From an unicellular cyanobacterium SU3 (lineage in GTDB: Bacteria; Cyanobacteriota; Cyanobacteriia; Cyanobacteriales; Microcystaceae), in assembly GCA_002172675.1 (NCBI GenBank), contig NETF01000182.1, positions 62,001-126,000 on the forward strand: DNA of 64,000 nt, given 5' to 3'. This document shows positions 48,978-64,000 of this stretch, piece after piece. The notes under the pieces are model-generated. The model searched no databases and was not told the DNA's origin. It saw only the letters and a list, made by a program, of their open reading frames with translations. How positions within the stretch are numbered: position 1 is the stretch's first letter; the number at the start of each line of letters is the position of its first letter. Both the position numbers and the translations under genes were made by a program.

Positions 48978-49004
48978 ATGGATCGGTTGGCGATCCATTT
49001 TTTT
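48978..49004 (+). terminator. Rho-independent terminator of recA
   Basis: ATGGATCG and CGATCCAT form a perfect 8-base stem around GTTGG, followed by seven T. It begins 39 bases after the recA stop. Confidence 0.93.
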
Positions 49005-49119
49005 ATGGAGAATTTTTATAGAGTCGTTTCAAATAAGTTTGAGACAGACCGAATGTGAGCATTCTGCTCACTATACTAACAATACAGTCTAGGTTTTGTC
49101 TCCTTTCTATTTGAATTAA

Positions 49120-49398
49120 CTACAATTCATTAGGATCAAGTCCCAAACTTCTAAGTCTTTCTTCTAGTCTTTTTGCTTTTTCTTGTGCTTTTTTAGCTTC
49201 TTCTTGAGGGGTTAAATAGCGTTTACCTTGTTGATCATACCAGTATAACCATTCTCTTTCTACTCCTTGATAAACACTGATTTCTCTTCCTATTCCTAAA
49301 TTAATTTCTGCTAACCAAATGGGTTCCCCTGATAATAATTCATACTGTCCATTGCTTAATTGATACACTTCTAAACGGGGATTATAGTTTAATAACAT
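49120..49398 (-). pseudogene. C-terminal fragment of a Uma2-family endonuclease-like protein
   Basis: The 92 residues match the C-terminal part of cyanobacterial Uma2 (DUF820) proteins: LEVYQLSNGQYELLSGEPIW, a REWLYWYDQQGKRYLTPQEE segment, and a coiled KKAQEKAKRLEERLRSLGLD end. The catalytic PD-(D/E)XK-like part that should precede it is absent; the DNA upstream (after 49398 on +) shows no continuation. I call it a truncated remnant, though it starts with ATG and might still be translated. Confidence 0.65.
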
Positions 49399-49546
49399 TG
49401 TTAAAAATTGAATTCCCTTAGTACAGCTTTTATAATTATATCATTATCGTTATCTCTTCTTAAATAAGTGTAATTAAATATAAAATAGAAAAGTTTGTAC
49501 TTAAAGCTTTAAGTATCATAATATCTAGAAATAACTAGGGAAGCGA

Positions 49547-49573
49547 TAAAAAAAGCCCACTAAAAGTAGGCTT
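49547..49573 (-). terminator. Rho-independent terminator of ndhD1
   Basis: On the minus strand AAGCCTAC and GTGGGCTT pair (one G-U) around a short loop and are followed by seven T. It lies about 27 bases after the ndhD1 stop codon. Confidence 0.9.
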
Positions 49574-49599
49574 CTTAATTATTAAAATAGGCTTAATTC

Positions 49600-51186
49600 C
49601 TATTTAATCATCGGGGCTTTCACTGCCATATCATAGCGAGAAGCCACTTCTACCTCTTCGACTAAACTAGGGACAGATTGACGCAATATACTGGTTAATT
49701 GTGTGGTGGTTGAATCGTAAATCTGAGTAACGATTTTTGGATACAAACCAATGCCAATAATAGGAATTAATAAACACCCAATAATAAACACTTCCCTCGG
49801 TTCTGCGTCAATTAGTTTGGTATGAGAAACTAACTCTTTATTTTCTGGTCCATATAACATTTCCCGTAACATGGACAGTAAATAAATGGGGGTTAAAATG
49901 ACACCGACGGCAGCTAAAAAGACGATGATAACTTTGAAAGTCGAATTATAAGCGTCGCTGGTTGCAAAGCCCACAAATACCATTAATTCTGCTACAAACC
50001 CACTCATTCCAGGTAATGCTAAAGAAGCCATTGAACAAGTGGTCCACATCGCAAACACTTTCTTCATTTTCTTCCCAACACCGCCCATTTCATCTAACAT
50101 TAGGGTATGGGTACGGTCATAGGTTGCCCCTACCATAAAGAACAGACTCGCCCCAATTAAACCGTGGGAAATCATCTGTAACATGGCCCCACTCAAACCA
50201 ATATCGGTAAACGAAGCGATACCTATCAAGACAAACCCCATGTGAGAGATAGAGGAATAGGCGATTTTTCGTTTTAGGTTTCGTTGGGCAAAGGAGGTTA
50301 AGGCAGCATAGATAATATTAACCACCCCTAAAATGACTAACACCGGAGCAAAATAGGCGTGAGCATCCGGTAACATTCCGGCATTCATCCGTAGCAGAGC
50401 ATAACCTCCCATTTTTAAGAGAATACCAGCCAGTAACATATGTGCCGGGGCTGTCGCTTCTCCGTGGGCATCCGGTAGCCAAGTATGCAGGGGAAAGATG
50501 GGTAATTTTACTCCGTAGGCGATGAGGAAACCAGCATACAAGAACAATTGTAGATTGAGGGGAATATCTTTGGCGGCAATGGCACTCATATCAAAGGTGA
50601 CGGTATCCCCAAAAAAGGCCATGGTTAATGCACCCACCAGGATAAACAAAGAACCGCCGGCAGTATAGAGGATAAACTTAGTAGCTGCGTATAATCTCCG
50701 TTTTCCGCCCCATATTGACAAAATTAGATAAACTGGAACTAATTCTAATTCCCAAACCAAGAAGAAAAGTAGCATATCCTGCACAGCAAAGACGGCTATT
50801 TGTCCACCGTACATAGCTAACATGAGGAAATAAAAGAGTTTGGGTTTAAAAGTAACCGGCCAAGCGGCCATGGTTGCCAACGTGGTGATAAAGCCAGTTA
50901 ATAAAATAAGAGGCATGGCTAACCCATCGGCCCCGACAGACCATTTTAGATCAAGTTCCGGAACCCACGCATAGCTTTCGACTAGCTGTAGGTTGGGGTT
51001 GCTGAGGTCATACCCTGTATAAAAAGCGTATACAATAATAGCAAAATCGATCAAACCCACTGTTAAAGCGTACCAGCGCACGGTTTTACCATCTTTATCG
51101 GGAATGATGGGTATTAACAACGCTGCCACAATGGGAAAGAGAATAATGGTAGTTAACCAAGGAAAATTAGCAAGGTTCATTGACAT
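49600..51186 (-). CDS. ndhD1: NAD(P)H-quinone oxidoreductase chain 4 (NdhD1)
   Basis: An antiporter-like proton-pumping membrane subunit of the photosynthetic NDH-1 complex. It is 528 residues with about 14 helices. The conserved [18 protein letters not shown] segment contains the essential Glu, followed by [20 protein letters not shown] and [20 protein letters not shown]. The sequence fits the D1 type of the respiratory and cyclic-electron-flow complex rather than the CO2-uptake NdhD3/D4 types (by recall). It is alone on the minus strand, as is usual for ndhD1. Confidence 0.95.
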
Positions 51187-51492
51187 TTTCTAAGCATTCA
51201 TCAATATTTCGGGTATTGGTCAGGAGGCTTGATAGTGAATAGTTAAGAAAATGAGTATTCTCTATTACTTTTTCTCTTTTGCCTGACACCAGACCCGTTA
51301 AGATATGATCGGAGTGAACCGTTAAACTGTGAAGACAGACAAACAATCCAAACGATCATCATTCACTCCTAAATCTAACAAGATTTTTCTGGAGATACTA
51401 TTGTAAAAACCTTAAATTTTTTGAAAATTATTATAATTTGCTTTATCTGTGACTAATTGATAATTCTACATTCTAAATTCTACATTCTATCT
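51187..51492. other. Intergenic region with ATTCTAM heptamers before the DUF512 gene
   Basis: A 306-base spacer between divergent genes. Four heptamers (ATTCTAC, ATTCTAA, ATTCTAC, ATTCTAT) occupy 51463-51490, directly against the start codon at 51493. No other structure is evident. Confidence 0.75.
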
Positions 51493-52821
51493 ATGACTTT
51501 ATCTTCTGTTCGTCCTGCTAAAATTACCAATGTTTTACCCGGTTCTATTGCCCAAGAGGTTGGCTTTGAAGTTGGGGATGCTATTGTATCTATTAATGGA
51601 ACTCAACCCCGTGATTTAATTGATTATAATTTTTTGTGTGCTGATGAATTTTTGGAGTTAGAGGTATTAGATAGTCAAGGTAAAATTCATCAAGTGGAAA
51701 TTGAAAAAGAATATGATGATAATTTAGGGCTAGAATTTGAATTTGCTTTATTTGATGGTCTAATTCAATGTAATAATCATTGTCCGTTTTGTTTTATTGA
51801 CCAACAACCCCCCGGAAAACGAGATAGTTTATATTTGAAGGATGATGATTATCGCTTAAGTTTTCTTTATGGCAGTTATTTAACTTTAACAAATTTAACC
51901 CAAAAAGAATGGCAACGTATCGAAGCTATGCGGTTATCTCCTTTATTTGTTTCGGTACACGCAACGGAACCCGATATTAGAATTAGACTATTAAAAAATG
52001 AACGAGCAGGATTAATCAAAGAACAGTTTAAATGGTTCCAAGAAAGACGATTACAACTTCATGCTCAAGTTGTGGTTTGTCCTGGGATTAATGATGGTGT
52101 TCATTTGGAAAAAACTCTTAAAGATTTAGCTGAATTTCATCTGGAAGAAATCCCCACTATTATATCGGCAGCCGTGGTTCCTGTGGGGTTAACTAAGTTT
52201 CGTCCCAGAGAAGATGAATTAATTCCTGTGAGTCAAGAAAAAGCACAAGAAGTCATCAAACAAGTGCAAAGTTTACAACAAGAATTTTATCAAAAGTTTA
52301 ACAGTCATTTTGCTTGGTTAGCTGATGAATGGTTTTTAATTGCACAAGCAGAATTACCCCCAGAATCTCATTATGAAGACTATCCCCAAATTGGTAATGG
52401 AGTGGGATCAATTCGTCAATTTATTAAAGAATTTCATGACACAGCCAAACAATTATTACCGAAAAAAATAGAGAAGAACAAAACGTTAACTTGGGTAGTG
52501 GGTAATGCTGTAGAAAAAGCCTTTCAACCTTTAGTTAAACAGTTAAATCAAGTAGAGAATTTAAATATAAAATTAGCTGCTTTAAATAGTGACTATTGGG
52601 GACAAGAAATTACAGTTACAGGATTATTAACAGGAGAAGATGTCATCTCAAAATTGAAAGATAAAAACCTAGAAGATGGTATTTTATTACCTTCTATTAT
52701 GTTAAAGCAACATGATACAGTCTTTTTAGATGATATGAGTGTCGAAAAAGTCTCTAAAACTTTAAACACGCCTATTATTATTGTTGATAGTATTTCAGAT
52801 TTAATTGAAAATTGTTATTAA
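51493..52821 (+). CDS. PDZ-radical SAM-like-DUF512 protein (TIGR03279 type)
   Basis: A 442-residue conserved cyanobacterial protein of unknown reaction. A PDZ-like domain (about 1-60, ITNVLPGSIAQEVGFEVGDA) precedes a radical SAM-like domain with the iron-sulfur motif CNNHCPFC and FIDQQPPGKRDSLYLKDDDY, then a C-terminal DUF512 domain (LLTGEDVISKLK, DDMSVEKVSK). I use ATG 51493 (MTLSSVRPAKITN); the upstream frame to 51457 is encoded by repeat DNA. The motif CxxxCxxC is intact, so SAM chemistry is plausible. Confidence 0.88.
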   Translation: MTLSSVRPAKITNVLPGSIAQEVGFEVGDAIVSINGTQPRDLIDYNFLCADEFLELEVLDSQGKIHQVEIEKEYDDNLGLEFEFALFDGLIQCNNHCPFCFIDQQPPGKRDSLYLKDDDYRLSFLYGSYLTLTNLTQKEWQRIEAMRLSPLFVSVHATEPDIRIRLLKNERAGLIKEQFKWFQERRLQLHAQVVVCPGINDGVHLEKTLKDLAEFHLEEIPTIISAAVVPVGLTKFRPREDELIPVSQEKAQEVIKQVQSLQQEFYQKFNSHFAWLADEWFLIAQAELPPESHYEDYPQIGNGVGSIRQFIKEFHDTAKQLLPKKIEKNKTLTWVVGNAVEKAFQPLVKQLNQVENLNIKLAALNSDYWGQEITVTGLLTGEDVISKLKDKNLEDGILLPSIMLKQHDTVFLDDMSVEKVSKTLNTPIIIVDSISDLIENCY

Positions 52822-53154
52822 ATTCTCTGTGATATCTCTGGAAGATTTTTAATAACTTTCTTTTATATTTTTTGTGAAACGTAGTTTCCCTGTCAGGGAA
52901 ATTACTGATTTTAAAGAATTCATATTTTAATTTTTCAGTATTTTTACCCATGAATCAGTGATAACTTGGATGCTCAAAAGGGTACTTTAGAACTGTAAAC
53001 CACATAGTTGGAATTGCCTATTGATATTATTCTGTAAAATCAACAGGTAAACAAACCTTTAAACAATAGTGTTTTGTAAACTATGAGTGTTTCTATGGTT
53101 AGGTATTTAACCCTAACCCAAATATTTTAAGATTGTTGCTAAGTATTAATAACT
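52822..53154. other. Intergenic region with hairpin
   Basis: A 333-base AT-rich spacer. GTAGTTTCCCTG and CAGGGAAATTAC (52881-52905) form a hairpin with one wobble. It has no T-run on either side, so it is not a standard terminator. Nothing else is evident. Confidence 0.6.
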
Positions 53155-54513
53155 ATGATTTTCAACTATTTAACATTATTCCGCTTCTATTTCAACTCCA
53201 AGAAACATCATAATACAGGTTTTGCACTATTTATGGTGATGGTACTGGGAACCGTTGGAACCGTTGCTACAGCAGCTTTACTTGCACGAAGCCATAATCT
53301 AAGTAATAATATCGAAACATCTATTACCATTAGTCAGCAAAATCTCAGTGTAGCTGAAACAGCAAAAGTTAATCTTCAAGCTTTATTAATTGAACATAAT
53401 GAATTACTTGAATATAATTTAGATGATTGGAAAAAATATTTAAAATCTCCTAATTTGTCTGAAACATCCCGTGAGTTTAATCATAATTTACGTTTGTGTA
53501 AAAAAGAAAAAGATTGGAAAAATACAAAACAGAAAATTTTAAACCTAGCTGAACATAATACCATTGATGCACCGATGGGAGAATTTTCTCTGCTCAATTT
53601 CCAAAAAGTTGATAGAAATAACATTTTAGCGACAATTAAAACCCAAAATACACAAGAAAATCAGGCACAGTATGAAATAAATATTAGTTTTAATGATAAT
53701 TATTTGTCAAAAGCTGTTCCTGTGTTATGGTTAACAGGAAACAAACAAAGTGGTGGAATTGGAAAGGCTAAAGTTAATGGAAATCTTTGGGCAAATGACT
53801 GTAGTTTTCCTGTTGAAAAAGCTGATTTAGTGGCAGTTGATGGAAATCAAGCAAAATATACAGGAGTAAAAATTCCTGAGTTACCTAATATAGAAGTAAT
53901 TAAAGAAAGATTACCAGAAAATCGCTATTTTCCCTCAATAGCAGAAGAACAGGAAAACCAAGAGCAAGAAAATAAAATTTCTTTAAAATTACCACGATTA
54001 GAAGATAAACCCACAAAAAAAGAAGGAGAAAAAAATATTTATGAATATTTCATTAATAAGATTGAGGAAATAGATTCATTGATTATTAACTCTGATTTTC
54101 AAGGTGAATCTATGATCATTTTATATGTTGTTGGAGATATTAATATATCTGAAATTGTCCATAAATGTGAGTCGTCTAATCCCTGTTCCCCTGAAAATTT
54201 AATGATTGTGGCTTACGAAGAAGCTAAAATGTGTTTACAATTTGAGAATTTATCCGCTTTTATCATTGCACCTGATTATGAATTAGGAATCAAAACCAAT
54301 AATCCCAATCAAGAATCTGCTAAATTTACTGGTAGTATTTGGACTAATAAATTGTTAACGACAGGAGAATGTGGAAGTGAAAAAGTGGAATTTAATGAAG
54401 CTTGGAAATGGGCTGATTTACCTAATGAATTTCAATCAATTCATCCTATTCCTAAACTCATTCAAGTCAATTTAAAAGAGTCTATTAAATCTGATATTTC
54501 AAAAGAACAGTAA
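53155..54513 (+). CDS. Pilin-like (PilX-type) membrane-anchored protein
   Basis: A 452-residue protein with a basic N-terminus, then TGFALFMVMVLGTVGTVATA as a single hydrophobic helix at about residues 21-44, and a long extracellular part. The KKHHNTG-F junction resembles a class III (type IV prepilin) signal, but the usual Glu at position +5 is Met, as in PilX-like or atypical minor pilins. The rest has paired Cys (ANDCSFPVEK, KCESSNPC, TTGECGSEK) that could form disulfides. There is an acidic, Glu/Gln-rich linker around residues 262-300. No pil genes are adjacent. Function is not established. Confidence 0.65.
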   Translation: MIFNYLTLFRFYFNSKKHHNTGFALFMVMVLGTVGTVATAALLARSHNLSNNIETSITISQQNLSVAETAKVNLQALLIEHNELLEYNLDDWKKYLKSPNLSETSREFNHNLRLCKKEKDWKNTKQKILNLAEHNTIDAPMGEFSLLNFQKVDRNNILATIKTQNTQENQAQYEINISFNDNYLSKAVPVLWLTGNKQSGGIGKAKVNGNLWANDCSFPVEKADLVAVDGNQAKYTGVKIPELPNIEVIKERLPENRYFPSIAEEQENQEQENKISLKLPRLEDKPTKKEGEKNIYEYFINKIEEIDSLIINSDFQGESMIILYVVGDINISEIVHKCESSNPCSPENLMIVAYEEAKMCLQFENLSAFIIAPDYELGIKTNNPNQESAKFTGSIWTNKLLTTGECGSEKVEFNEAWKWADLPNEFQSIHPIPKLIQVNLKESIKSDISKEQ

Positions 54514-54573
54514 GTTGTCTAGAAGATAAGTTTACATTCATCCCTATCTAAAATTTGGGTGTTTTTTGAGAAT

Positions 54574-55911
54574 TTATAGATGGGGACTTCTTTCAACATT
54601 TTTGTGAAAACGATAAGTTACCCCGGCAATGGCTGATAATAATAACCAACCAATTAAATTCACTCTCAAATCAAAAATACTCACATCTAAGAGATTAAAA
54701 ACAATGCACAAACCAAAGGAAACTAGATAAGTAAACAACAGCAAAAAATCTGCTTCATTTTCAGATAAATTGTTTATTTTTCCATTTTTTTCTAATTTCT
54801 TAAAATTCTGATGAATTCTAGTCATTAATATCATAGCTTTAGCTAAAATGATACCCACTAAGCCACTGAATAATAAAGTCCCAATGATACCAATTTCCGC
54901 CAATAACATCAAAAATAAATTATGAGGATGGCCCATCCAAACATTCATTTCTTCTTGATAAATAGGGGTAAAATTTCGTAGTCCCCACCCCCAAAAAGGA
55001 CGCTGTAACATCATCTTCCAAGCTACACCCCATTGAGTCGTTCGCAAGGCGGTAACATAACGATCATCGTACAACTCATCTGTCAATCTTGCCCAAAAAT
55101 AACTAGGAACAACTTGACGCATAAAATCTTGATAAACAGGAATCCAAGCAGCCCAAATTACCACAAAGATAACCAAGAAAACACTAATAATAATCCAATA
55201 CCAACGTAAATAAATAGAAAAAGCCATTAAACCTAAAATAGCAAGTCCCCAGGCACTCCTAGAATTAGTTACAATTAGTCCTATCCCATTGAAAAAAATA
55301 GCTACTGTTAAAACTAATAATTGCCTATTAATTCGACCATTTTTAATAATAGAATCACGACGATAATGTAAAATCCATAAACCAATGGATAAAGTAAAAG
55401 CAACCACCAAAAAAAAGGCTAACGTATTAGCATACATTAACAAAGAAGACATCCTGCCATCAGGATGACCATAAGCAATCATTTTAATGCCAATACGATG
55501 TAAAAATAACGGGGTTTCCCAACCAGCAAATAATTGCATAAACCCCAAAAAACACACAGGAATAGATGTTAAAACTAACCACCAAGCGAGTTGATATAAT
55601 CGCCTGAAGCTATTGAAAAAGAAGGGAAAAGATGCTATCATCAAAAAAGATGGTAAAAAGTTCCCTAACCCTTCCCAACTATAGCGAGAATGAACCGCTA
55701 AAAGGGAAGATAGAATTAACCAAAGAAATAGAAGTCCCCAACCCCAATTAATGGGGTTAGTAATGATTTTTTTAAATTTTTGTTGCCATAAACCTATGAG
55801 GACAAGGCCAAAGGCAGTGGCTCCAAAATCAGCCGAAAAAGGCAAAAGAAACACCCCAAACTTGAGGGTATTTCCTAACCAATGAACTTTATTTTTATTT
55901 AATTGATTCAT
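54574..55911 (-). CDS. O-antigen ligase/polymerase family membrane protein
   Basis: A 445-residue protein with about 11 hydrophobic helices. The large periplasmic loop carries QRPFWGWGLRNFTPIY and WMGHPHNLFLMLLAEIGIIG, the typical O-antigen ligase (Wzy_C) signature with the conserved HN. Such proteins join glycan units or ligate glycans at the periplasmic face. IctB-like membership is possible. No other glycan gene is near, so the substrate is open. It is convergent with the pilin-like gene. Confidence 0.83.
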   Translation of the reverse strand: MNQLNKNKVHWLGNTLKFGVFLLPFSADFGATAFGLVLIGLWQQKFKKIITNPINWGWGLLFLWLILSSLLAVHSRYSWEGLGNFLPSFLMIASFPFFFNSFRRLYQLAWWLVLTSIPVCFLGFMQLFAGWETPLFLHRIGIKMIAYGHPDGRMSSLLMYANTLAFFLVVAFTLSIGLWILHYRRDSIIKNGRINRQLLVLTVAIFFNGIGLIVTNSRSAWGLAILGLMAFSIYLRWYWIIISVFLVIFVVIWAAWIPVYQDFMRQVVPSYFWARLTDELYDDRYVTALRTTQWGVAWKMMLQRPFWGWGLRNFTPIYQEEMNVWMGHPHNLFLMLLAEIGIIGTLLFSGLVGIILAKAMILMTRIHQNFKKLEKNGKINNLSENEADFLLLFTYLVSFGLCIVFNLLDVSIFDLRVNLIGWLLLSAIAGVTYRFHKNVERSPHL

Positions 55912-55967
55912 GGGTAAAGAAACTTATCTTGATGATTAACTATTAATTATTGATTATTAGTTAGTTA

Positions 55968-56813
55968 TTAAGCAAGTTCCCAAGTTTCTGTGCGAGTTAG
56001 ACGAATTTGAGCTAGAGCGAAAATAACAGGAATAATACGCCCATAGTTAGTAGCGATCGCTCGCCAACCGAGATCCGCCACAAACCAACCCCATAACACA
56101 GGACCCACAAAAGATAAAACCCCTCTCACCACACCATAACGGGCTGCTGTCATAGCCATTCCTCGTCGTGCGGTATTTACTGCCACTTGGTTAGCCACAG
56201 CGGCACCACCGCGAATCATGGCTTGTTGAGCTACTTGGTAACGGGCAAAATGTAGAGCAAACTGTTGAGCAATATGTTTGAGTAACAAAGGTTTAACAAT
56301 GGAATTAACTGCAAAGGCACTGCTACCTTTTAACACGAGCTTCATAGGATTATGTTGGAGTTGCACCGGTAGAGCATCAGGAATATTCGATTTTGCCAAA
56401 GATGCTTGTATTTGTGCCATTAAGCTATTCTGTTGAGCAGGGGGCAGATTTTTCCACGCTTTCCCCAATAAATTTAAGAAAATATCCGCTTCAATGTCGA
56501 TGGTGGACATTTTATTAGAGTAAGGAATTTTCAGGTAGTGACAAACACGAATTAAAGTTTGACGATAACTAAACCGTTGAGTTTTGCGTTTTATAACCGT
56601 TAACCCGTCGGAGGCCAAAAAACGAAATCTCGCTTCAATTTTGTCTAACCATTGATCCCAGTCTTGACTCTCTACTTCAATGGGATCTGGGGTTTGTAAA
56701 TAATCAAGAGGATTAAATTTACGGCAAAAGAGAACTTGAGTTAACTGACGTAATTCCTCTTCTGTAGCCATTTCTAAGGCCGATCGCAGTTCATCCAAAA
56801 TCAGTCCCTCCAA
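55968..56813 (-). CDS. YaaW-family protein
   Basis: A 281-residue protein. The segment SNKMSTIDIEADIFLNLLGK with AWKNLP matches the YaaW/UPF0174 family, whose function is unknown. The N-terminal part (LDELRSALEMATEEELRQLT) is helical, and the C-terminal part has Ala/Gly-rich, moderately hydrophobic helices (GVLSFVGPVLWGWFVADLGW) that may contact membrane. The family is often annotated as a ubiquinol-cytochrome c chaperone-like protein without proof. Confidence 0.75.
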   Translation of the reverse strand: MEGLILDELRSALEMATEEELRQLTQVLFCRKFNPLDYLQTPDPIEVESQDWDQWLDKIEARFRFLASDGLTVIKRKTQRFSYRQTLIRVCHYLKIPYSNKMSTIDIEADIFLNLLGKAWKNLPPAQQNSLMAQIQASLAKSNIPDALPVQLQHNPMKLVLKGSSAFAVNSIVKPLLLKHIAQQFALHFARYQVAQQAMIRGGAAVANQVAVNTARRGMAMTAARYGVVRGVLSFVGPVLWGWFVADLGWRAIATNYGRIIPVIFALAQIRLTRTETWELA

Positions 56814-56967
56814 ACAGGGTATTAGGTGGTATCTAGAAAATCACCTCTATTATCATACTAAAAAAATCCGTCAGCAAAAGATATACAATGTACTATTTTC
56901 CTTTGGCCTAGTACAAGTTTAACAGCCATCAGCTATTTTAATATAACACTGACTGCTGACCGCTTTT

Positions 56968-57930
56968 TTAACGTTCTGTGTATTCTCGTTCACGATAATA
57001 ATTCTTGATAGGTTCATCCCCAACTTCTAAGGCAGGGGGATATTGTTCAATCTGGCTACGAGTTTGAGCAATATTAGTTAAAAGAACGCCATAAACAACT
57101 TTAGAAAAAATATCAGCCATTGTGAACAGAAATTGTCTTGTAACTGCAGCCCATCCACCCCAAGCAGGATAGAGGTGCCAGCCAAAAGGAACTAAATAAG
57201 CAAGAGGATAAAGTGTCCAAGAGATTAAGAGTAGCCACCAAACCCCTTTAAACATTTTAGCTGGTTTTTCTGGTAAACTTTGACCTGATTTGCCGATGAC
57301 GTTTCCCACTAAAAAGAGAATATAGACATAGAAAACCGTACTAATCAAACCCCAGATTAAGAAAGCAGGGATATTACTAAGTTCAAAATATTGACCAATG
57401 TAGCCCGTATAAATCATTAATAATCCTGCAGTAATAAATTTAATCCGCAGGCGACGTTTATGACCTCTATTAAGATCAAATAAAAATAACATTTGTGTTA
57501 ATAATAAGGGAACATCAATAGACCAATTAAGGTAACGATAGCCATTATTAAAGGTACTTTCGGTAAACGTCCCTAACTCACTAACAGTTAGCCGCCAAAC
57601 TCTACCATCAAATTCAAAGGCATCTAACCAACCATTTAGCTGTCGAAATAAAATTAAGAAAGCTGATACCATTACAACGGCTGATAAAATAGAAGAAATT
57701 TGATAACGAGGGGCTGAACGTTTAAGAGTAACAATAAAATAAACAAAACCACAAGCCATGGTACTGACTCCCAAAGTTAAAAGATGAGAAATAAGTTGTC
57801 TTTGAATGGGAGTATATTCGAGATAATTTTCTAGGTTAATACCTGGAATAAAGTTGGCTTGAGACTGAGCAAAAAAGGTGGTTATGGATGAAAAGTAATA
57901 TAAAATTACTCCATCACTAATAATATCCAT
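56968..57930 (-). CDS. Type 1 (microbial) rhodopsin with NDQ sodium-pump motif
   Basis: A seven-helix retinal protein of 320 residues. Helix C reads YRYLNWSIDVPLLLTQM: R132, N135, D139 and Q146 stand at bacteriorhodopsin positions 82, 85, 89 and 96, giving the N-D-Q motif of light-driven sodium pumps such as KR2. Helix F has W238 and YP (241-242) in ISWTLYPLAYLVP. Helix G has D273 and the retinal Schiff-base Lys277 in TMADIFSKVVYGVLL. Long stretches agree with KR2 from memory (ILSAVVMVSAF, TGYIGQ). A charged 30-residue tail is extra. The ATG is preceded by GGAG at 57940-57937. No retinal-forming oxygenase gene is in the window. Confidence 0.94.
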   Translation of the reverse strand: MDIISDGVILYYFSSITTFFAQSQANFIPGINLENYLEYTPIQRQLISHLLTLGVSTMACGFVYFIVTLKRSAPRYQISSILSAVVMVSAFLILFRQLNGWLDAFEFDGRVWRLTVSELGTFTESTFNNGYRYLNWSIDVPLLLTQMLFLFDLNRGHKRRLRIKFITAGLLMIYTGYIGQYFELSNIPAFLIWGLISTVFYVYILFLVGNVIGKSGQSLPEKPAKMFKGVWWLLLISWTLYPLAYLVPFGWHLYPAWGGWAAVTRQFLFTMADIFSKVVYGVLLTNIAQTRSQIEQYPPALEVGDEPIKNYYREREYTER

Positions 57931-58340
57931 AAAATTCTCCAGTAATTAGGAATTCCAAAAATCTAAATTTATCATAGGAAAACAGATTTTAATAATTCCT
58001 CTATCGAAAGTATTAAATTCCTGTTTAACTCCGTTTTATTCTTATTTTTTTAGTCATTATTGAAGGTTCCCTAATAGGAAAGTCATTACTTAGGATTCTT
58101 CACGGGTGATTTAAGTATTTATTTCCAATATAAAAAACAAAAACCAGTAAATTTAGGCAATTTTATTGGTTTATCGCCTAATTGAACAATTTTTTATTTT
58201 TTTTTACCTTATAGCACCCCTCTAAACCCTCTTAAATTCATCACTAACTGCTATTAATTTTTCTCTAACACTATTCAGAAATACCCCATTCAGACTAAAC
58301 TAGAAGTTTGCAAAATCATTGTTGATGTAGATTATTGAAA
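57931..58340. other. Intergenic region between divergent rhodopsin and tpiA
   Basis: A 410-base AT-rich spacer that holds both promoters. A TATGAT box on the minus strand near 57972 could be the rhodopsin -10 element (weak). No repeat or small gene is evident. Confidence 0.55.
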
Positions 58341-59072
58341 ATGGCTGTAGGAAAAATTATCATTGCAGGTAACTGGAAAATGCACAAAACTCAGGCCGAA
58401 GCCTTAGAGTTTTTAACAGTATTAAAATCAAAAGTAGAAGAGACAGACGAAAACAGAGAGATTGTTCTCTGTGTCCCCTTTACAGTCCTTAGTATCCTCT
58501 CCAAAAGCTTGCATGGGGGAAAAGTGCGTTTAGGGGCCCAAAACGTTCACTGGGAAGATAAAGGAGCTTACACCGGCGAAATTTCGGGACCCATGTTAAC
58601 GGAGTTGAGTGTAGATTATGTGGTTATCGGTCATAGTGAACGTCGTCAATATTTTGGAGAAACGGACGAAACTGCTAATTTACGGGTGATTACCGCCCAA
58701 CGTCATGGCCTCACCCCTATTCTCTGTGTGGGAGAAACTAAGCAACAACGGGACGCAGGAGAAGCCGAAAGCGTTATCATTAATCAGTTACAAAAAGGGC
58801 TAGTAGATGTAGACCAGAGCAAATTAGTGATTGCTTACGAACCCATCTGGGCCATTGGAACCGGAGATACTTGTGACGCAGAAGAAGCTAACCGAATTAT
58901 TCGCCTTATCCGCGATCAATTATCTAATAAAAACGTCACTATTCAATATGGTGGTTCGGTGAAACCGAATAATATTGACGAAATTATGGCCCAGTCCGAT
59001 ATTGATGGGGCTTTAGTTGGGGGTGCAAGTTTAGACCCGGTTAGTTTTGCCCGTATTGTTAATTATCAATAA
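58341..59072 (+). CDS. tpiA: Triosephosphate isomerase
   Basis: Interconverts dihydroxyacetone phosphate and glyceraldehyde 3-phosphate in glycolysis and the Calvin cycle. GNWKMHKTQ holds the substrate Lys, [11 protein letters not shown] the His, and [13 protein letters not shown] the catalytic Glu. From the ATG at 58341 it is 243 residues, a normal length. folP follows on the same strand after a repeat-filled gap of 252 bases. Confidence 0.97.
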
Positions 59073-59081
59073 CATTTTTAA

Positions 59082-59153
59082 GGCAAGAGGCAACAAGTGT
59101 CTAATTCGTCGTTGTACGGCGAATTAGACACTCAAGACAGGCAAGAGGCAAGA
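59082..59153. repeat. Hairpin inserted in GGCAAGA heptamer repeats
   Basis: GGCAAGA and GGCAACA (59082-59095) and two GGCAAGA units (59140-59153) flank a hairpin with 16-base perfect arms (59096-59111 and 59117-59132) and core CGTCG-TTGTA-CGGCG. The hairpin looks inserted into a tandem repeat. Confidence 0.88.
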
Positions 59154-59324
59154 GTCAACTGTTTTTCTGCTTTCTGCCTTCCTTGAAAGGTTTTTTACAG
59201 CAGTTTTTAATTGAGTGTATTAAACAGCTAAGTGGGTATGGGGTGTAGGAGGTAACGGGAAGAATTTGCACTTTACTCTGAATTCTATACAAATGAAAAT
59301 GGCTTTTAATAATTAATATGAAAA

Positions 59325-60164
59325 ATGAATAATTTAACAATTAGAAATACTATTTTTGACTGGGAAAAACGCACTTATTTAATGGGAATCTTAAATGTGA
59401 CTCCTGATAGCTTCAGTGATGGGGGACAATATAACAGTATTGAAACTGCATTAGAACAAGCTAAAAAGATGATGGATAATGGTGCAGATATCATTGATAT
59501 TGGTGGCCAATCTACTCGTCCAGGTGCCGAAGAAATTACCCTAGAAGAAGAGTTAAATCGAGTTATTCCTATTATTCAAAAATTGCGTAAAAATAGTTTA
59601 ATTCCTATCTCTATTGATACCACAAGATCCCAAGTAGCTCAAGTTGCCATTGAAGCAGGGGCAGATATTGTTAACGATATTTCTGGGGGAACGTTTGACG
59701 AAAAAATGTTTTCAACTGTGGCAAGTTTAGACGTTCCTATGATTATTATGCACATTCGAGGAACCCCTAAAACCATGCAACAAAATACTGATTATCAAGA
59801 CTTAGTTAATGAGGTCATAGAATGGTTAAATTGTCAAGTTAATCAAGCCATTAAAGCAGGAATTGATCAGCATAAAATTATTATTGATCCTGGTATTGGT
59901 TTCGCTAAAACCTATCAACAAAATATAGAATTATTACAGAATTTAGCACAGTTTCATCGTTTAAATTGTCCTATTTTAGTGGGGGTTTCTCGTAAAAGTT
60001 TTATTGGACATATTTTAAAGCAAAAAGACCCTAAAAAAAGAGTCTGGGGAACCGCAGCAGCTTGTTGTAGTGCGATCGCTTCTAAAAGTCATATTTTACG
60101 GGTTCATGATGTAGCAGAAATCAAAGATGTCGCTCAAGTCGCTGATCAAATTTGGCGTAATTAA
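59325..60164 (+). CDS. folP: Dihydropteroate synthase
   Basis: Joins 4-aminobenzoate with hydroxymethyl-dihydropterin diphosphate in folate synthesis. It has ILNVTPDSFSDGG, DIGGQSTRPGAEEI, PISIDTTRSQVA, NDISGG and DPGIGFAKT, and closes with VGVSRKSFIG and the RVHDV motif. Length 279 is normal. Confidence 0.97.
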   Translation: MNNLTIRNTIFDWEKRTYLMGILNVTPDSFSDGGQYNSIETALEQAKKMMDNGADIIDIGGQSTRPGAEEITLEEELNRVIPIIQKLRKNSLIPISIDTTRSQVAQVAIEAGADIVNDISGGTFDEKMFSTVASLDVPMIIMHIRGTPKTMQQNTDYQDLVNEVIEWLNCQVNQAIKAGIDQHKIIIDPGIGFAKTYQQNIELLQNLAQFHRLNCPILVGVSRKSFIGHILKQKDPKKRVWGTAAACCSAIASKSHILRVHDVAEIKDVAQVADQIWRN

Positions 60165-60436
60165 TGAATAATTAACAATTAATAATTAATAATTATTTTT
60201 TAAGAAAGTATCAAAAATGAACACTTTTCCCTATTCCCTATTAAGATTAATTAAAATTCAATAACCAAAAAGTTGCTAAAATACCCCTCAAACCTAGTGA
60301 AAATAAGGTCTAGAGCCTATTTTGCTTTATGTAACATTATTTAAGCAAACACTCAATAAACGCAACAACTTTGAGACAATCAAAAACAGCTTATCAGCGT
60401 GTCATTATCGCGTCTTAACTATATTAGGAGAATTCT

Positions 60437-61963
60437 ATGAAACTGGCTTATTGGATGTATGCAGGTCCGGCACACATTGGCACCCTACGCATTGCTAGTT
60501 CTTTTAAAAACGTCCATGCTATTATGCACGCACCCCTAGGGGATGATTATTTTAACGTCATGCGATCGATGTTAGAAAGAGAAAGAGACTTTACTCCTGT
60601 GACTGCCAGTATTGTTGATCGCAACGTTTTGGCCCGGGGTTCTCAAGAAAAGGTAGTCGATAATATTGTTCGCAAGGATGGGGAAGAAAAGCCAGATTTA
60701 ATTGTTTTAACCCCCACTTGTACCTCTAGCATTTTACAAGAAGATTTAGCCAATTTTGTCGAACGGGCCCAAATGGATGCTCAAGGGGATGTTTTATTAG
60801 CCGATGTTAATCATTATCGTTACAACGAGTTACAGGCAGCCGATAGAACTTTACACCAAATTGTTAAATTTTACCTGGAAAAAGCCCGTAAAAAAGAGCA
60901 ATTACCCCAAGGAAAAACAGCTAATCCCTCTGTTAATATTATCGGTATTTCTACCCTTGGCTTTCATAACCAACATGACTGTAGAGAGTTAAAACAGTTA
61001 ATGAAAGATTTGGGAATTGAAGTCAATGAAGTGATTCCCGATGGTGCTTCGGTTCACAATTTAAAAAACTTACCGAAAGCATGGTTTAACTTAGTTCCTT
61101 ATCGAGAGTTAGGGGTGGCAACGGCTCAATATTTAGAGGAAGAATTTAATATTCCTTATGTGGATATTACCCCGATGGGAGTGGTAGAAACAGCGAGATG
61201 TATTCGCAAAATTCAACAGATTATTAATGAACAAGGGGCAACTGTTGACTATGAAGAATTCATCAACGAACAGACATTATATGTGTCTCAAGCGGCTTGG
61301 TTTTCTCGTTCCATTGACTGTCAAAATTTAACCGGTAAAAAAGCTGTTGTCTTTGGAGATAATACCCACGCTGCTGCGCTTACTAAAATATTAGCAAGGG
61401 AGATGGGAATTCATGTGGTTTTAGCCGGAACTTATTGTAAATATGATGCCGACTGGTTTAAAGAACAAGTCAGTGAATATTGCGATCAAGTATTAATTAG
61501 TGATGATAATGGAGAGATTGGTGATGCGATCGCACGTATCGAACCTTCTGCTATTTTTGGCACCCAAATGGAACGTCATGTAGGTAAAAGATTAGACATT
61601 CCTTGCGGTGTAATTGCTGCACCGATTCACATTCAAAACTTCCCTATTGGTTATAAACCTTTCTGTGGTTATGAAGGCACAAATCAGATTGCTGATTTAG
61701 TTTATAATTCCTTTACGTTGGGCATGGAAGATCATCTTTTAGAAATCTTTGGAGGACATGATACCAAAGAAGTGATTACTAAAGGAATTTCTGCTGATTC
61801 TGATTTGAATTGGAATAAAGAAGCACAAGCAGAATTGAATAAAGTTCCTGGTTTTGTTCGGGGTAAAGTGAAGCGAAACACGGAAAAATTTGCCCGTGAA
61901 AGAGGATTTTCTGAAATTAGTTTAGAAGTCATGTATGCAGCAAAAGAAGCTGTAGGCGCATAA
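60437..61963 (+). CDS. chlB: Light-independent protochlorophyllide reductase subunit B
   Basis: With ChlN forms the catalytic component that reduces protochlorophyllide in the dark; it is nitrogenase-like and oxygen sensitive. The 508 residues open [20 protein letters not shown] and include [13 protein letters not shown] with the cluster-ligand Cys, PVGV-type [17 protein letters not shown] and a C-terminal [25 protein letters not shown] stands close to the ATG. A GGTGGGCA palindrome follows the stop by 9 bases. Confidence 0.98.
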
Positions 61964-61972
61964 TTAAAGTAG

Positions 61973-61989
61973 GGTGGGCAATGCCCACC
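61973..61989. repeat. GGTGGGCA-A-TGCCCACC palindrome after chlB
   Basis: Perfect 8-base arms with a 1-base centre, followed by a T-rich run (CTTTTAAATTTTT), so it can act as the chlB terminator. Confidence 0.88.
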
Positions 61990-62035
61990 TTTTAAATTTT
62001 TATTAATTTTATTACCTTATATCCTAATAAATAGG

Positions 62036-62296
62036 ATGACAAGTATTCAATTATTTCAATGGGTAGAATTAAAATTCGATGTCCCTAATAGTCTAGTTAA
62101 AAAAGGGGATAAAGGAGTGGTTTTAGAGTATTTAAAACCCACAAAAAAACAGTCAGAACCTGGCTATAATTTAGAAGTGTTCAAAGATGGAGAAACTTTA
62201 GATATTATTTCCATTTCTATTTCCTGGGTAATACCTTTACCTGAAATGTGGGGAGAAAATCAATACGATCATCTAAAATTAAAAGAAATGACTTAA
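62036..62296 (+). CDS. DUF4926-like small protein
   Basis: An 86-residue protein. FDVPNSLVKKGDKGVVLEYL followed by a YNLEVF segment and a WVIPLP motif near the end fits DUF4926 proteins, small beta-rich proteins often next to DUF2283 genes and sometimes treated as toxin-antitoxin-like pairs without proof. The next gene starts 1 base after its stop. Confidence 0.75.
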   Translation: MTSIQLFQWVELKFDVPNSLVKKGDKGVVLEYLKPTKKQSEPGYNLEVFKDGETLDIISISISWVIPLPEMWGENQYDHLKLKEMT

Positions 62297-62297
62297 T

Positions 62298-62504
62298 ATG
62301 GACAACCTAAAAATTTATCATGATCAACAAGCAAAAACTTTAACCATTTGGTTTGATGACCCAAAAAAAGAATTTTTAGTTGATGAAGTAGAAGAAGATT
62401 TGTCTTTAATTAAAGACCAACAAGGAAATATTATTGGAATTGAAAGATTAAACTATTTAGGAACTAAACTAGATGCTTCAAAAGTTGAATTTGTTGATTT
62501 CTAG
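62298..62504 (+). CDS. DUF2283-like small protein
   Basis: A 68-residue protein, KIYHDQQAKTLTIWFDDPKK then IKDQQGNIIGIERLNYLG. The pattern fits DUF2283. It is encoded immediately after the DUF4926-like gene and is surely co-translated with it. Confidence 0.78.
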   Translation: MDNLKIYHDQQAKTLTIWFDDPKKEFLVDEVEEDLSLIKDQQGNIIGIERLNYLGTKLDASKVEFVDF

Positions 62505-62715
62505 CTCTACTTTAAATCATAGGGTACATCTGAAAAAAGATCGATAGCTTGACCAAGATTCAACATAAAACCCTCTAAGAATTTACGAAAGCTGACTTAA
62601 AACATTCTAATATTATCAGTTTTAATGAATTACCGAACCGTGATCTCGGTCACACATTAGCTATAAATATCCTTTTAAGTAACATTGTTTTAAATATATT
62701 ACTAATACTCAATCT

Positions 62716-62976
62716 TTAATCTATTTCATCATCATCGGGTAAAGTTTCCATTTCTTCAGCAATTAAGTCTTGAAAACTTTCGCCACAATGAACTTGTAAA
62801 TGAATAGTTGCTGTTAATAGTTCGGCTAAAATTTGTGCTTTTTGTTTTTCTGTAATATCAGATAATTGTAATTGATTAATCAAAATAGTAACGTTATTAC
62901 ATTCTTCAGATAATTCTGAAAGTAAATGATTTAAAGTATTATTTTTAATCGGTAAAATAGTTTTCTTGAGTTGCAT
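62716..62976 (-). CDS. Small hypothetical protein in the hupL downstream cluster
   Basis: An 86-residue, mostly helical protein (LNHLLSELSEECNNVTILIN, AQILAELLTATIHLQVHCGE) with an acidic end (LPDDDEID). It starts 3 bases after the stop of the 61-residue gene upstream, so the two are translationally coupled. I do not recognise a family. Confidence 0.65.
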   Translation of the reverse strand: MQLKKTILPIKNNTLNHLLSELSEECNNVTILINQLQLSDITEKQKAQILAELLTATIHLQVHCGESFQDLIAEEMETLPDDDEID

Positions 62977-62979
62977 GAT

Positions 62980-63165
62980 TTATTTCCCTAATCTTTTATA
63001 AGCTTGTTTAATTCCTTTTTCAAACGCAGCTATTTCTGCTTGCCAATGATGAATAAGTCCCTCATCAGGTAGTTCTTTAGCGTACTCTTGTCTAATTTTT
63101 TCGTGATGTTCTTCAATGCGTTTTGTTAAAGAACGAATTGTTTTCTTATGGTTTTTCTTGCCCAT
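62980..63165 (-). CDS. Small helical hypothetical protein downstream of hupL
   Basis: From the ATG at 63165 the protein is MGKKNHKKTIRSLTKRIEEH and on to KGIKQAYKRLGK, 61 residues, very basic and helical. The longer frame to 63249 runs through the GGTGGGCA palindrome and is unlikely. It lies 86 bases after hupL on the same strand. Small genes follow hupL in other diazotrophic cyanobacteria, but no function is known to me. Confidence 0.7.
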   Translation of the reverse strand: MGKKNHKKTIRSLTKRIEEHHEKIRQEYAKELPDEGLIHHWQAEIAAFEKGIKQAYKRLGK

Positions 63166-63222
63166 GAAAATTGTCCATGAGTTTAGAGTAGTTAAAATAA
63201 GCCTAATCAAATAATAAACAAA

Positions 63223-63245
63223 TAAGGTGGGCAATGCCCACCCTA
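63223..63245. repeat. TAAGGTGGGCA-A-TGCCCACCCTA palindrome after hupL
   Basis: Near-perfect 11-base arms. On the minus strand it lies 6 bases past the hupL stop and is followed by T-rich DNA. Confidence 0.88.
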
Positions 63246-63251
63246 CCAATA

Positions 63252-64000
63252 TTAATTAGTGCGGAACCTTGCTAATTCCTTGCCGGTCTTAGCATCATGA
63301 GCATGAACCGTACAAACCAAACAAGAATCAAACGATCGCGCTACATGACCCACTTCTACGGGGTTGCTACTATCTTCGATAGGAATACCCACTAACGCCT
63401 CTTCAATAGGTCCTCTGATGTGTTGACCATCCCGTGGTCCAACGTTCCAGGTGGTAGGTGCAATCACTTGATAATTCTTGATTTTACCCTTTTCGACTTC
63501 AACCCAGTGGCATAACGCGCCACGACTTGCTTCTGTACCACCCCAACCGCGGCCATCTTTTTCGGTGGGTTTGATGTACCAGGGATCATTTAATTTAAAC
63601 TCACGCAGACATCTTTCAACTTCCCGATATAGTTTAACCGACTCGTGCATCCGTGCAAACTCTCGGAGATGGATACTAGGGCCACCCATCTTTTTGAACA
63701 TATCCAAGATTAAACCATCGTAATGCTGCCAACTTTCCCCATGCTTTCCACCAGCAACCAACTGACGCGCTAGAGATCCTACTTCCATACGGCCTAAATC
63801 TTTATGAGACACAGCAGTAGACCAGGAATATTTACCCTCGTAGTCTCCTGTATTTATATGTTTAGGTTGAGTGGTGCGATCAAAGGGATGAACGTCTGCG
63901 GTTCCTTCTTCATACCACGCATGGCTGGTATTTTCCCGTGCAAAGGTATGGTCCACCATATGGTGCATATCGGTAAAGCTATCATATACACCCCCTTTCA
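63252..64000 (-). CDS. hupL: Uptake [NiFe]-hydrogenase large subunit, C-terminal part (5' end outside window)
   Basis: The large subunit recycles hydrogen made by nitrogenase. About 249 codons are present and the frame is open to the edge, so the start is beyond 64000. The C-terminal nickel-binding motif reads DSCLVCTVH, and the end (ELARFRTN) is the peptide that a specific protease such as HupW removes after metal insertion. HCHMVDHTF-like and GGTEASRGALCHW segments are family typical. Its presence implies a diazotroph. Confidence 0.95.
   Translation of the reverse strand, partial: KGGVYDSFTDMHHMVDHTFARENTSHAWYEEGTADVHPFDRTTQPKHINTGDYEGKYSWSTAVSHKDLGRMEVGSLARQLVAGGKHGESWQHYDGLILDMFKKMGGPSIHLREFARMHESVKLYREVERCLREFKLNDPWYIKPTEKDGRGWGGTEASRGALCHWVEVEKGKIKNYQVIAPTTWNVGPRDGQHIRGPIEEALVGIPIEDSSNPVEVGHVARSFDSCLVCTVHAHDAKTGKELARFRTN

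Follow-up and report, generated by a model that had tools for sequence, protein, structure and literature searches.

Which kind of rhodopsin does the unicellular cyanobacterium SU3 encode, and could it pump sodium in a photosynthetic, nitrogen-fixing cell? That sodium-pump-type rhodopsins (NaRs) occur in cyanobacteria is already known, and the protein described here is a further member of that kind. In the accessible parts of the two surveys, Hasegawa 2020 counts one NaR gene in cyanobacteria and Hasegawa-Takano 2024 (PMC11528372) six among 102 cyanobacterial rhodopsin genes, the latter holding cyanobacterial NaRs to derive from non-cyanobacteria; both deal with NaRs in cyanobacteria, as our set does, and, as the genes go unnamed in those parts, may include some of ours. 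The NaR of Lyngbya aestuarii gave no photocurrent in ND7/23 cells, which was ascribed to poor membrane expression (Tsunoda 2017, PMC5531490, accessible part). In the open-access literature, among the matches listed, we found no cyanobacterial NaR reported to pump Na+, and the accessible parts of PMC9617919, PMC12587747, PMC5468372 and PMC7979833 contain no assay of one.

The window encodes an intact NDQ rhodopsin

The gene lies on the minus strand of the 64,000-nucleotide stretch analysed here (the window; Table 1), exactly where a first-pass annotation, which gave no strand, had placed it; it begins with ATG and has no internal stop. Its product matches the Pfam family Bac_rhodopsin (E 1.6e-41) and none of the NCBIfam families, and it is the one PF01036 match in the SU3 genome at E 0.001, compared with matches in 0 of 14 control genomes. 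Comparing the sequence with solved structures, named here after their entry titles, showed IaNaR (8jh0, E 3.4e-66) and KR2 (E 2.5e-65) to be nearest, with about 45% identity to both, followed by NTQ chloride pumps (best E 9.6e-51), ErNaR (1.4e-48) and xanthorhodopsin (4.9e-34).

Table 1 Features of the rhodopsin locus, in window positions
Feature	Position	Strand	Basis or remark
NDQ microbial rhodopsin, 320 aa	56968..57930	-	complete ORF; nearest solved structures IaNaR and KR2; model pLDDT 91.1
Helix C: R132, N135, D139, Q146 (NDQ motif)	57493..57537	-	alignment to KR2; coordinates by codon arithmetic
Helix G: D273 (second counter-ion) to K277 (retinal Schiff-base lysine)	57100..57114	-	alignment to KR2
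Helix B: I93 (KR2 L74) to Q97 (KR2 Q78), Subgroup 1 active-site residues	57640..57654	-	residue table
Lengthened BC loop, residues 113-126, includes E124, S125	57553..57594	-	S125 = place of KR2 D102
Segment of ~1.4 kb that congeners G006, G002, G007 lack	56859..58251	.	sole long ORF = rhodopsin
Left neighbour, no Pfam match	55968..56813	-	present in 5/8 congeners
Right neighbour, triosephosphate isomerase (tpiA, by eye)	58335..59072	+	present in 7/8 congeners

Alignment to KR2 paired R132 with R109, N135 with N112, D139 with D116, Q146 with Q123, D273 with D251 and K277 with K255. The six residues named by the first-pass annotation are thus all in place, and the NDQ signature of light-driven Na+ pumps that it had reported is accompanied by the catalytic residues of such pumps. 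Nine of the ten key KR2 positions given in the accessible part of PMC7195465 are kept (H30, S70, R109, N112, D116, Q123, R243, D251, S254), as are S64, E160 and K255 (KR2 numbering). With KR2 and IaNaR the protein shares the NDQ motif, R109, D251, K255, S70, Q78, L/I at position 74 and the fold; it differs from KR2 in Y25 (R44), N81 (G100), D102 (S125) and G220 (L243). KR2 G263 is replaced by T285. IaNaR has threonine here too, as do 34 of the 56 rows of the Bacteroidota-type group, which contains both KR2 and IaNaR and also a few members of other phyla. Among the 73 rows outside the cyanobacterial groups, ten columns hold one residue in at least 93% of rows and are departed from by the window protein; KR2 G220 is one of them, and none is catalytic. 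A glycine at KR2 G171 can open a carotenoid window; the equivalent G194 is glycine in every row of the residue tally.

The AlphaFold2 monomer model, built from a 32-sequence alignment, reached a pLDDT of 91.1 and a pTM of 0.86, with lower confidence in residues 1-30, the BC loop (pLDDT 77-82) and the C-terminal end. The 50 Foldseek matches listed all belonged to KR2 or IaNaR, with a best E of 8.8e-20 and TM scores of 0.91 by target and 0.78 by query. VIA-align returned an NTQ chloride pump first, together with KR2, ErNaR and IaNaR structures at Z 33.7-36.0; because the first rows are tied, the fold fails to separate Na+ from Cl- pumps.

A Subgroup 1 active site is joined to a subunit interface predicted to differ from that of KR2

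In its accessible text, PMC11006869 uses the residues RNDQDK as a filter for NDQ rhodopsins, divides these by L/I (Subgroup 1) or E (Subgroup 2) at KR2 L74, and describes an inter-protomer Na+ site, formed by the Y25 and D102 side chains, as thought common to all of Subgroup 1. The window protein carries RNDQDK on a seven-helix retinal protein, which makes it an NDQ rhodopsin (NaR) by this definition, and I93 assigns it to Subgroup 1 and not to Subgroup 2. At the inter-protomer site, its sequence has R44 for Y25 and S125 for D102. The same holds across the four rows of its clade in the residue table (clade I: window, L014, L015 and L016; the tree adds L119-L122, outside the residue tallies), where Y25 is replaced by R, H, H and H and D102 by S, S, S and T, with an acidic residue (E or D) directly before the D102 place in 4/4. 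In the Bacteroidota-type rows, D102 is present in 48/56 and Y25 in 49/56; their absence is therefore not unique to cyanobacteria. The span from W101 to Y133 comprises 33 residues in the window protein and L014, four more than the 29 of KR2, and 25 in L015, L016 and six rows of a second cyanobacterial group. The protein of L016, which we identify from the species name as the Lyngbya aestuarii NaR (WP_052001698.1), belongs to the same cyanobacterial clade as the window protein at about 60% identity, but has a shorter BC loop.

That second group (L018, L019, L020, L041, L023, L007) shares the NDQ motif with ErNaR-type Subgroup 2 and with the window protein, but carries E at L74 and L/I at Q78 where the window has I and Q, and keeps D102 in three of six rows. 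One of its members, L007:1456-2373 (genome G236), is the exception at KR2 D251: it carries G there, and the other tallied rows, including its near relative L023, have D. Read from its residues, the window protein is a mosaic in which a Subgroup 1 active site (I93, Q97) is joined to the loss of the KR2 inter-protomer Na+ side chains.

The cyanobacterial clade lies outside the KR2 core

Relatives were drawn from three samples. In the scan of named genomes, the best 80 of 199 relatives, a cut that under-samples distant NDQ proteins, included nine loci from eight named cyanobacteria. Among 386 genomes of the phylum, nine matched at E 1e-10, three of them with NDQ (G000, G051, G236) and the remaining six with a motif that begins D-T. 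In the sample from the order (388 genomes), a match at E 1e-20 was found in 15; ten of them carry an NDQ gene or remnants of one, and the other five show 30-34% identity (motif read in two of these). The cyanobacterial NDQ proteins form two groups, clade I with I at position 74 and the second group with E. Both occur in Gloeocapsopsis crepidinum, with a single gene per group, the clade I copy being interrupted by a stop. On viral contigs, a search pattern was matched by 73 stretches, none of which encodes a relative.

The careful tree comprised 46 rows and was rooted with an XLR outgroup (DTE-type root). The distant types L004, L005 and L013 were excluded from all trees and L017 from the careful tree and the residue tallies, and L014 was retained with X at its stop; in the quick tree, L017, L018, L027, L029, L043, L053 and L071 were represented by their longest between-stop piece, the stops of L018 lying behind the gene. 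In line with the first-pass annotation, the window rhodopsin groups with NDQ proteins. It joins the protein of genome G577 at 100/100, and clade I as a whole holds eight rows, all cyanobacterial (support 100/99). KR2 falls in a separate 18-row clade (100/100) of Bacteroidota, Balneolota, Chloroflexota, one Rhodothermota and one Pseudomonadota, so that the window protein, at about 45% identity to KR2 and IaNaR, stands outside their Bacteroidota-type core. An NTQ chloride pump falls among the NDQ rows, and the deep branches have no firm order. Also in the careful tree, the NDQ rhodopsin of Hymenobacter arizonensis (L022) pairs (93/94), on a long branch, with the chain of the NTQ chloride pump, a placement under which the NDQ group would not be cleanly monophyletic; the quick tree puts it next to clade I (support 82).

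In AU tests, for which the groups were chosen once the first trees were known, placing clade I within a 14-row KR2 core (Bacteroidota, Balneolota, one Rhodothermota, one Pseudomonadota) was rejected at p 9.2e-6. Neither the placement of clade I as sister to the entire KR2 clade (p 0.47) nor a single clade of both cyanobacterial groups (p 0.159) was rejected. Because these alternatives stand, the tree does not fix the number and source of transfers into cyanobacteria. The assignment to the "KR2 class" made by the first-pass annotation therefore holds as far as NDQ rhodopsins are concerned, whereas its strict sense is ruled out by the rejected nesting in the core, and the KR2 inter-protomer Na+ side chains are absent as well. 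Taken together, the window gene is, by sequence, an intact NDQ rhodopsin of a distinct clade, with a predicted subunit interface unlike that of KR2.

The gene was probably gained at a variable site and decays in some relatives

None of eight congeners (completeness 79-99%) has a rhodopsin match at E 0.001. Three of them (G006, G002, G007) carry both neighbours on one contig, and the gene is absent from all three readable gaps. Flank homology to the congeners ends near 56858 and restarts at 58252; the gap between aligned flanks measures about 0.1 kb in G006 and is likewise short in G007, and the segment has a GC content of 33%, compared with 38% for the window. In G002 the gap (L106:4218-4872) holds a HEPN/nucleotidyltransferase-like pair of ORFs (by eye), and since this pair fills the same place, the site beside tpiA looks like an insertion spot. 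Gain of the gene is the simpler reading, although it may instead have been lost across all congeners. A misbinned contig was ruled out by the synteny of both flanks with congeners. Between the window and G577, rhodopsin identity (76-80%) is below that of ChlB (90%), so that identity alone gives no sign of a recent transfer between the two.

Long synteny among 17 cyanobacterial NaR loci is confined to family f17, the others sharing small scattered sets. Neighbours of the window gene (ORFs of at least 100 aa, 49001-64000) had no match at the other NaR loci of this set, and for this reason we propose no accessory gene. A scan of the locus gave six promoter-like sites (6.0 expected) and no terminator-like site (1.4 expected). 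Elsewhere in the window, an ORF at 63252-63968 resembles, by eye, part of an uptake hydrogenase large subunit.

Six f17 genomes carry the gene, which is intact in G442, G453 and G488, interrupted by a stop in G051, split over two frames in G476 and reduced to a fragment with four stops in G464. Since the f17 loci have neighbours in common, this decay happened in place. The clade I rhodopsin of a Phormidium tanganyikae MAG (L017:6001-6915) is interrupted by a stop, and its helix C is garbled, possibly by assembly error. With broken copies in three of six f17 genomes and in this MAG, the trait looks dispensable. For the three pairs of intact f17 copies, dN was 0.025-0.033 and dS 0.60-1.10, which indicates that these copies are under purifying selection; the selection figures concern the f17 copies, dS between the window and G577 being saturated.

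The host encodes a likely retinal source and sodium-side partners

The genome has six RPE65-family genes. Two of their proteins were compared with solved structures, and for both the Synechocystis ACO was best (E 4e-134 and 2e-68), the former value being that of L096 against 2biw. The BCD/Blh family PF15461 had no match in the genome and none in the controls. The genome thus likely encodes a Diox1-like oxygenase as retinal source; a source had been anticipated in the first-pass annotation, but as a beta-carotene dioxygenase and not as the Diox1-type apocarotenoid oxygenase found here. One nifH match above the curated cut-off bears out its description of the host as diazotrophic, and the SbtA family has one match.

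Two ATPase c subunits are encoded, one in the usual F-ATPase cluster (L145) and one in a second set (L146; G000:C110:105000-115000). The latter comprises beta, epsilon, AtpQ, AtpR, a, c, b and alpha (epsilon, b and alpha assigned by eye), an order that we take to be that of N-ATPases. AtpR (E 2.5e-30) and the AtpQ domain PF09527 (E 1e-14) were recognised, beta, a and c score above the cut-offs of the "alternate F1F0" models, and the c subunit (VESTAIY) presumably carries Na+ ligands. Two features count against a working N-ATPase: b and alpha are separated by a toxin-antitoxin-like pair (by eye), and the gamma-like ORF runs in the opposite direction. N-ATPases have been named in three cyanobacteria (PMC4154653, accessible part).

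Proposed function and alternatives

We consider it quite probable that the protein is an NDQ-group pump that works on its own and uses light to export Na+, that it belongs to a cyanobacterial clade separate from the KR2 clade proper, and that its gene was gained by single-gene transfer. Retinal from the Diox1-type oxygenase would bind K277. By residue identity with KR2, light would isomerise the retinal and the Schiff-base proton would pass to D139, cytoplasmic Na+ would enter past S83 and Q146 and bind transiently near N135, D139 and D273, and return of the proton would release Na+ outside. Its exit probably leads past Q97 without the KR2 inter-protomer relay, since the equivalents of Y25 and D102 are gone. 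The lineage most likely gained the gene in one such transfer, perhaps from a cyanobacterial donor, into the variable site beside tpiA, when the retinal enzyme would already have been present in the host. The Na+ gradient would aid salt export and Na+-coupled uptake, for example by SbtA.

KR2 itself pumps Na+ where Na+ is much above H+ and otherwise moves H+ (PMC7195465, accessible part), and in a low-Na+ host, for example in freshwater, the window protein might act mainly as an outward H+ pump. This is unlikely in view of the retained Na+-site residues (N112, D116, Q123 and D251 in KR2 numbering) and of the Na+-side partners in the genome, the N-ATPase gene set and SbtA. The lack of a match in the eight congeners, the broken copies in f17 and the Phormidium MAG and the Lyngbya protein without current (PMC5531490, accessible part) would fit a dispensable recent acquisition heading for loss, with little or no function, but the window copy is intact with its catalytic residues kept, and the strong purifying selection among intact f17 copies makes this reading improbable. 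That K+ or an anion is moved, or that the protein is a light sensor, we hold to be very improbable. Structure entry titles call KR2 G263F potassium-pumping and the window has T285 at this place, one NTQ chloride pump falls within the NDQ part of the tree, and NTQ chloride pumps head the structural comparison in a tie with KR2; however, many members of the group, among them IaNaR, have threonine at the G263 place, D139 stands where, from the motif name, an NTQ chloride pump has T, and no transducer-like neighbour was seen by eye near the gene.

Beyond the outward Na+ pump that we favour, cyanobacterial clade I could represent a third working NDQ design, a KR2 active site without the inter-protomer relay, which in this diazotroph would drive a light-powered Na+ circuit with the N-ATPase. 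This wider reading is doubtful, and the circuit linking rhodopsin and N-ATPase is conjectural; if true, ATP or Na+-coupled uptake would be driven by light without either photosystem. The cyanobacterial clade puts in doubt the inter-protomer Na+ site as a universal trait of Subgroup 1 and supplies intact proteins for testing it. If the protein pumps as proposed, a photosynthetic, N2-fixing cell would gain a Na+ gradient independent of photosynthetic electron flow.
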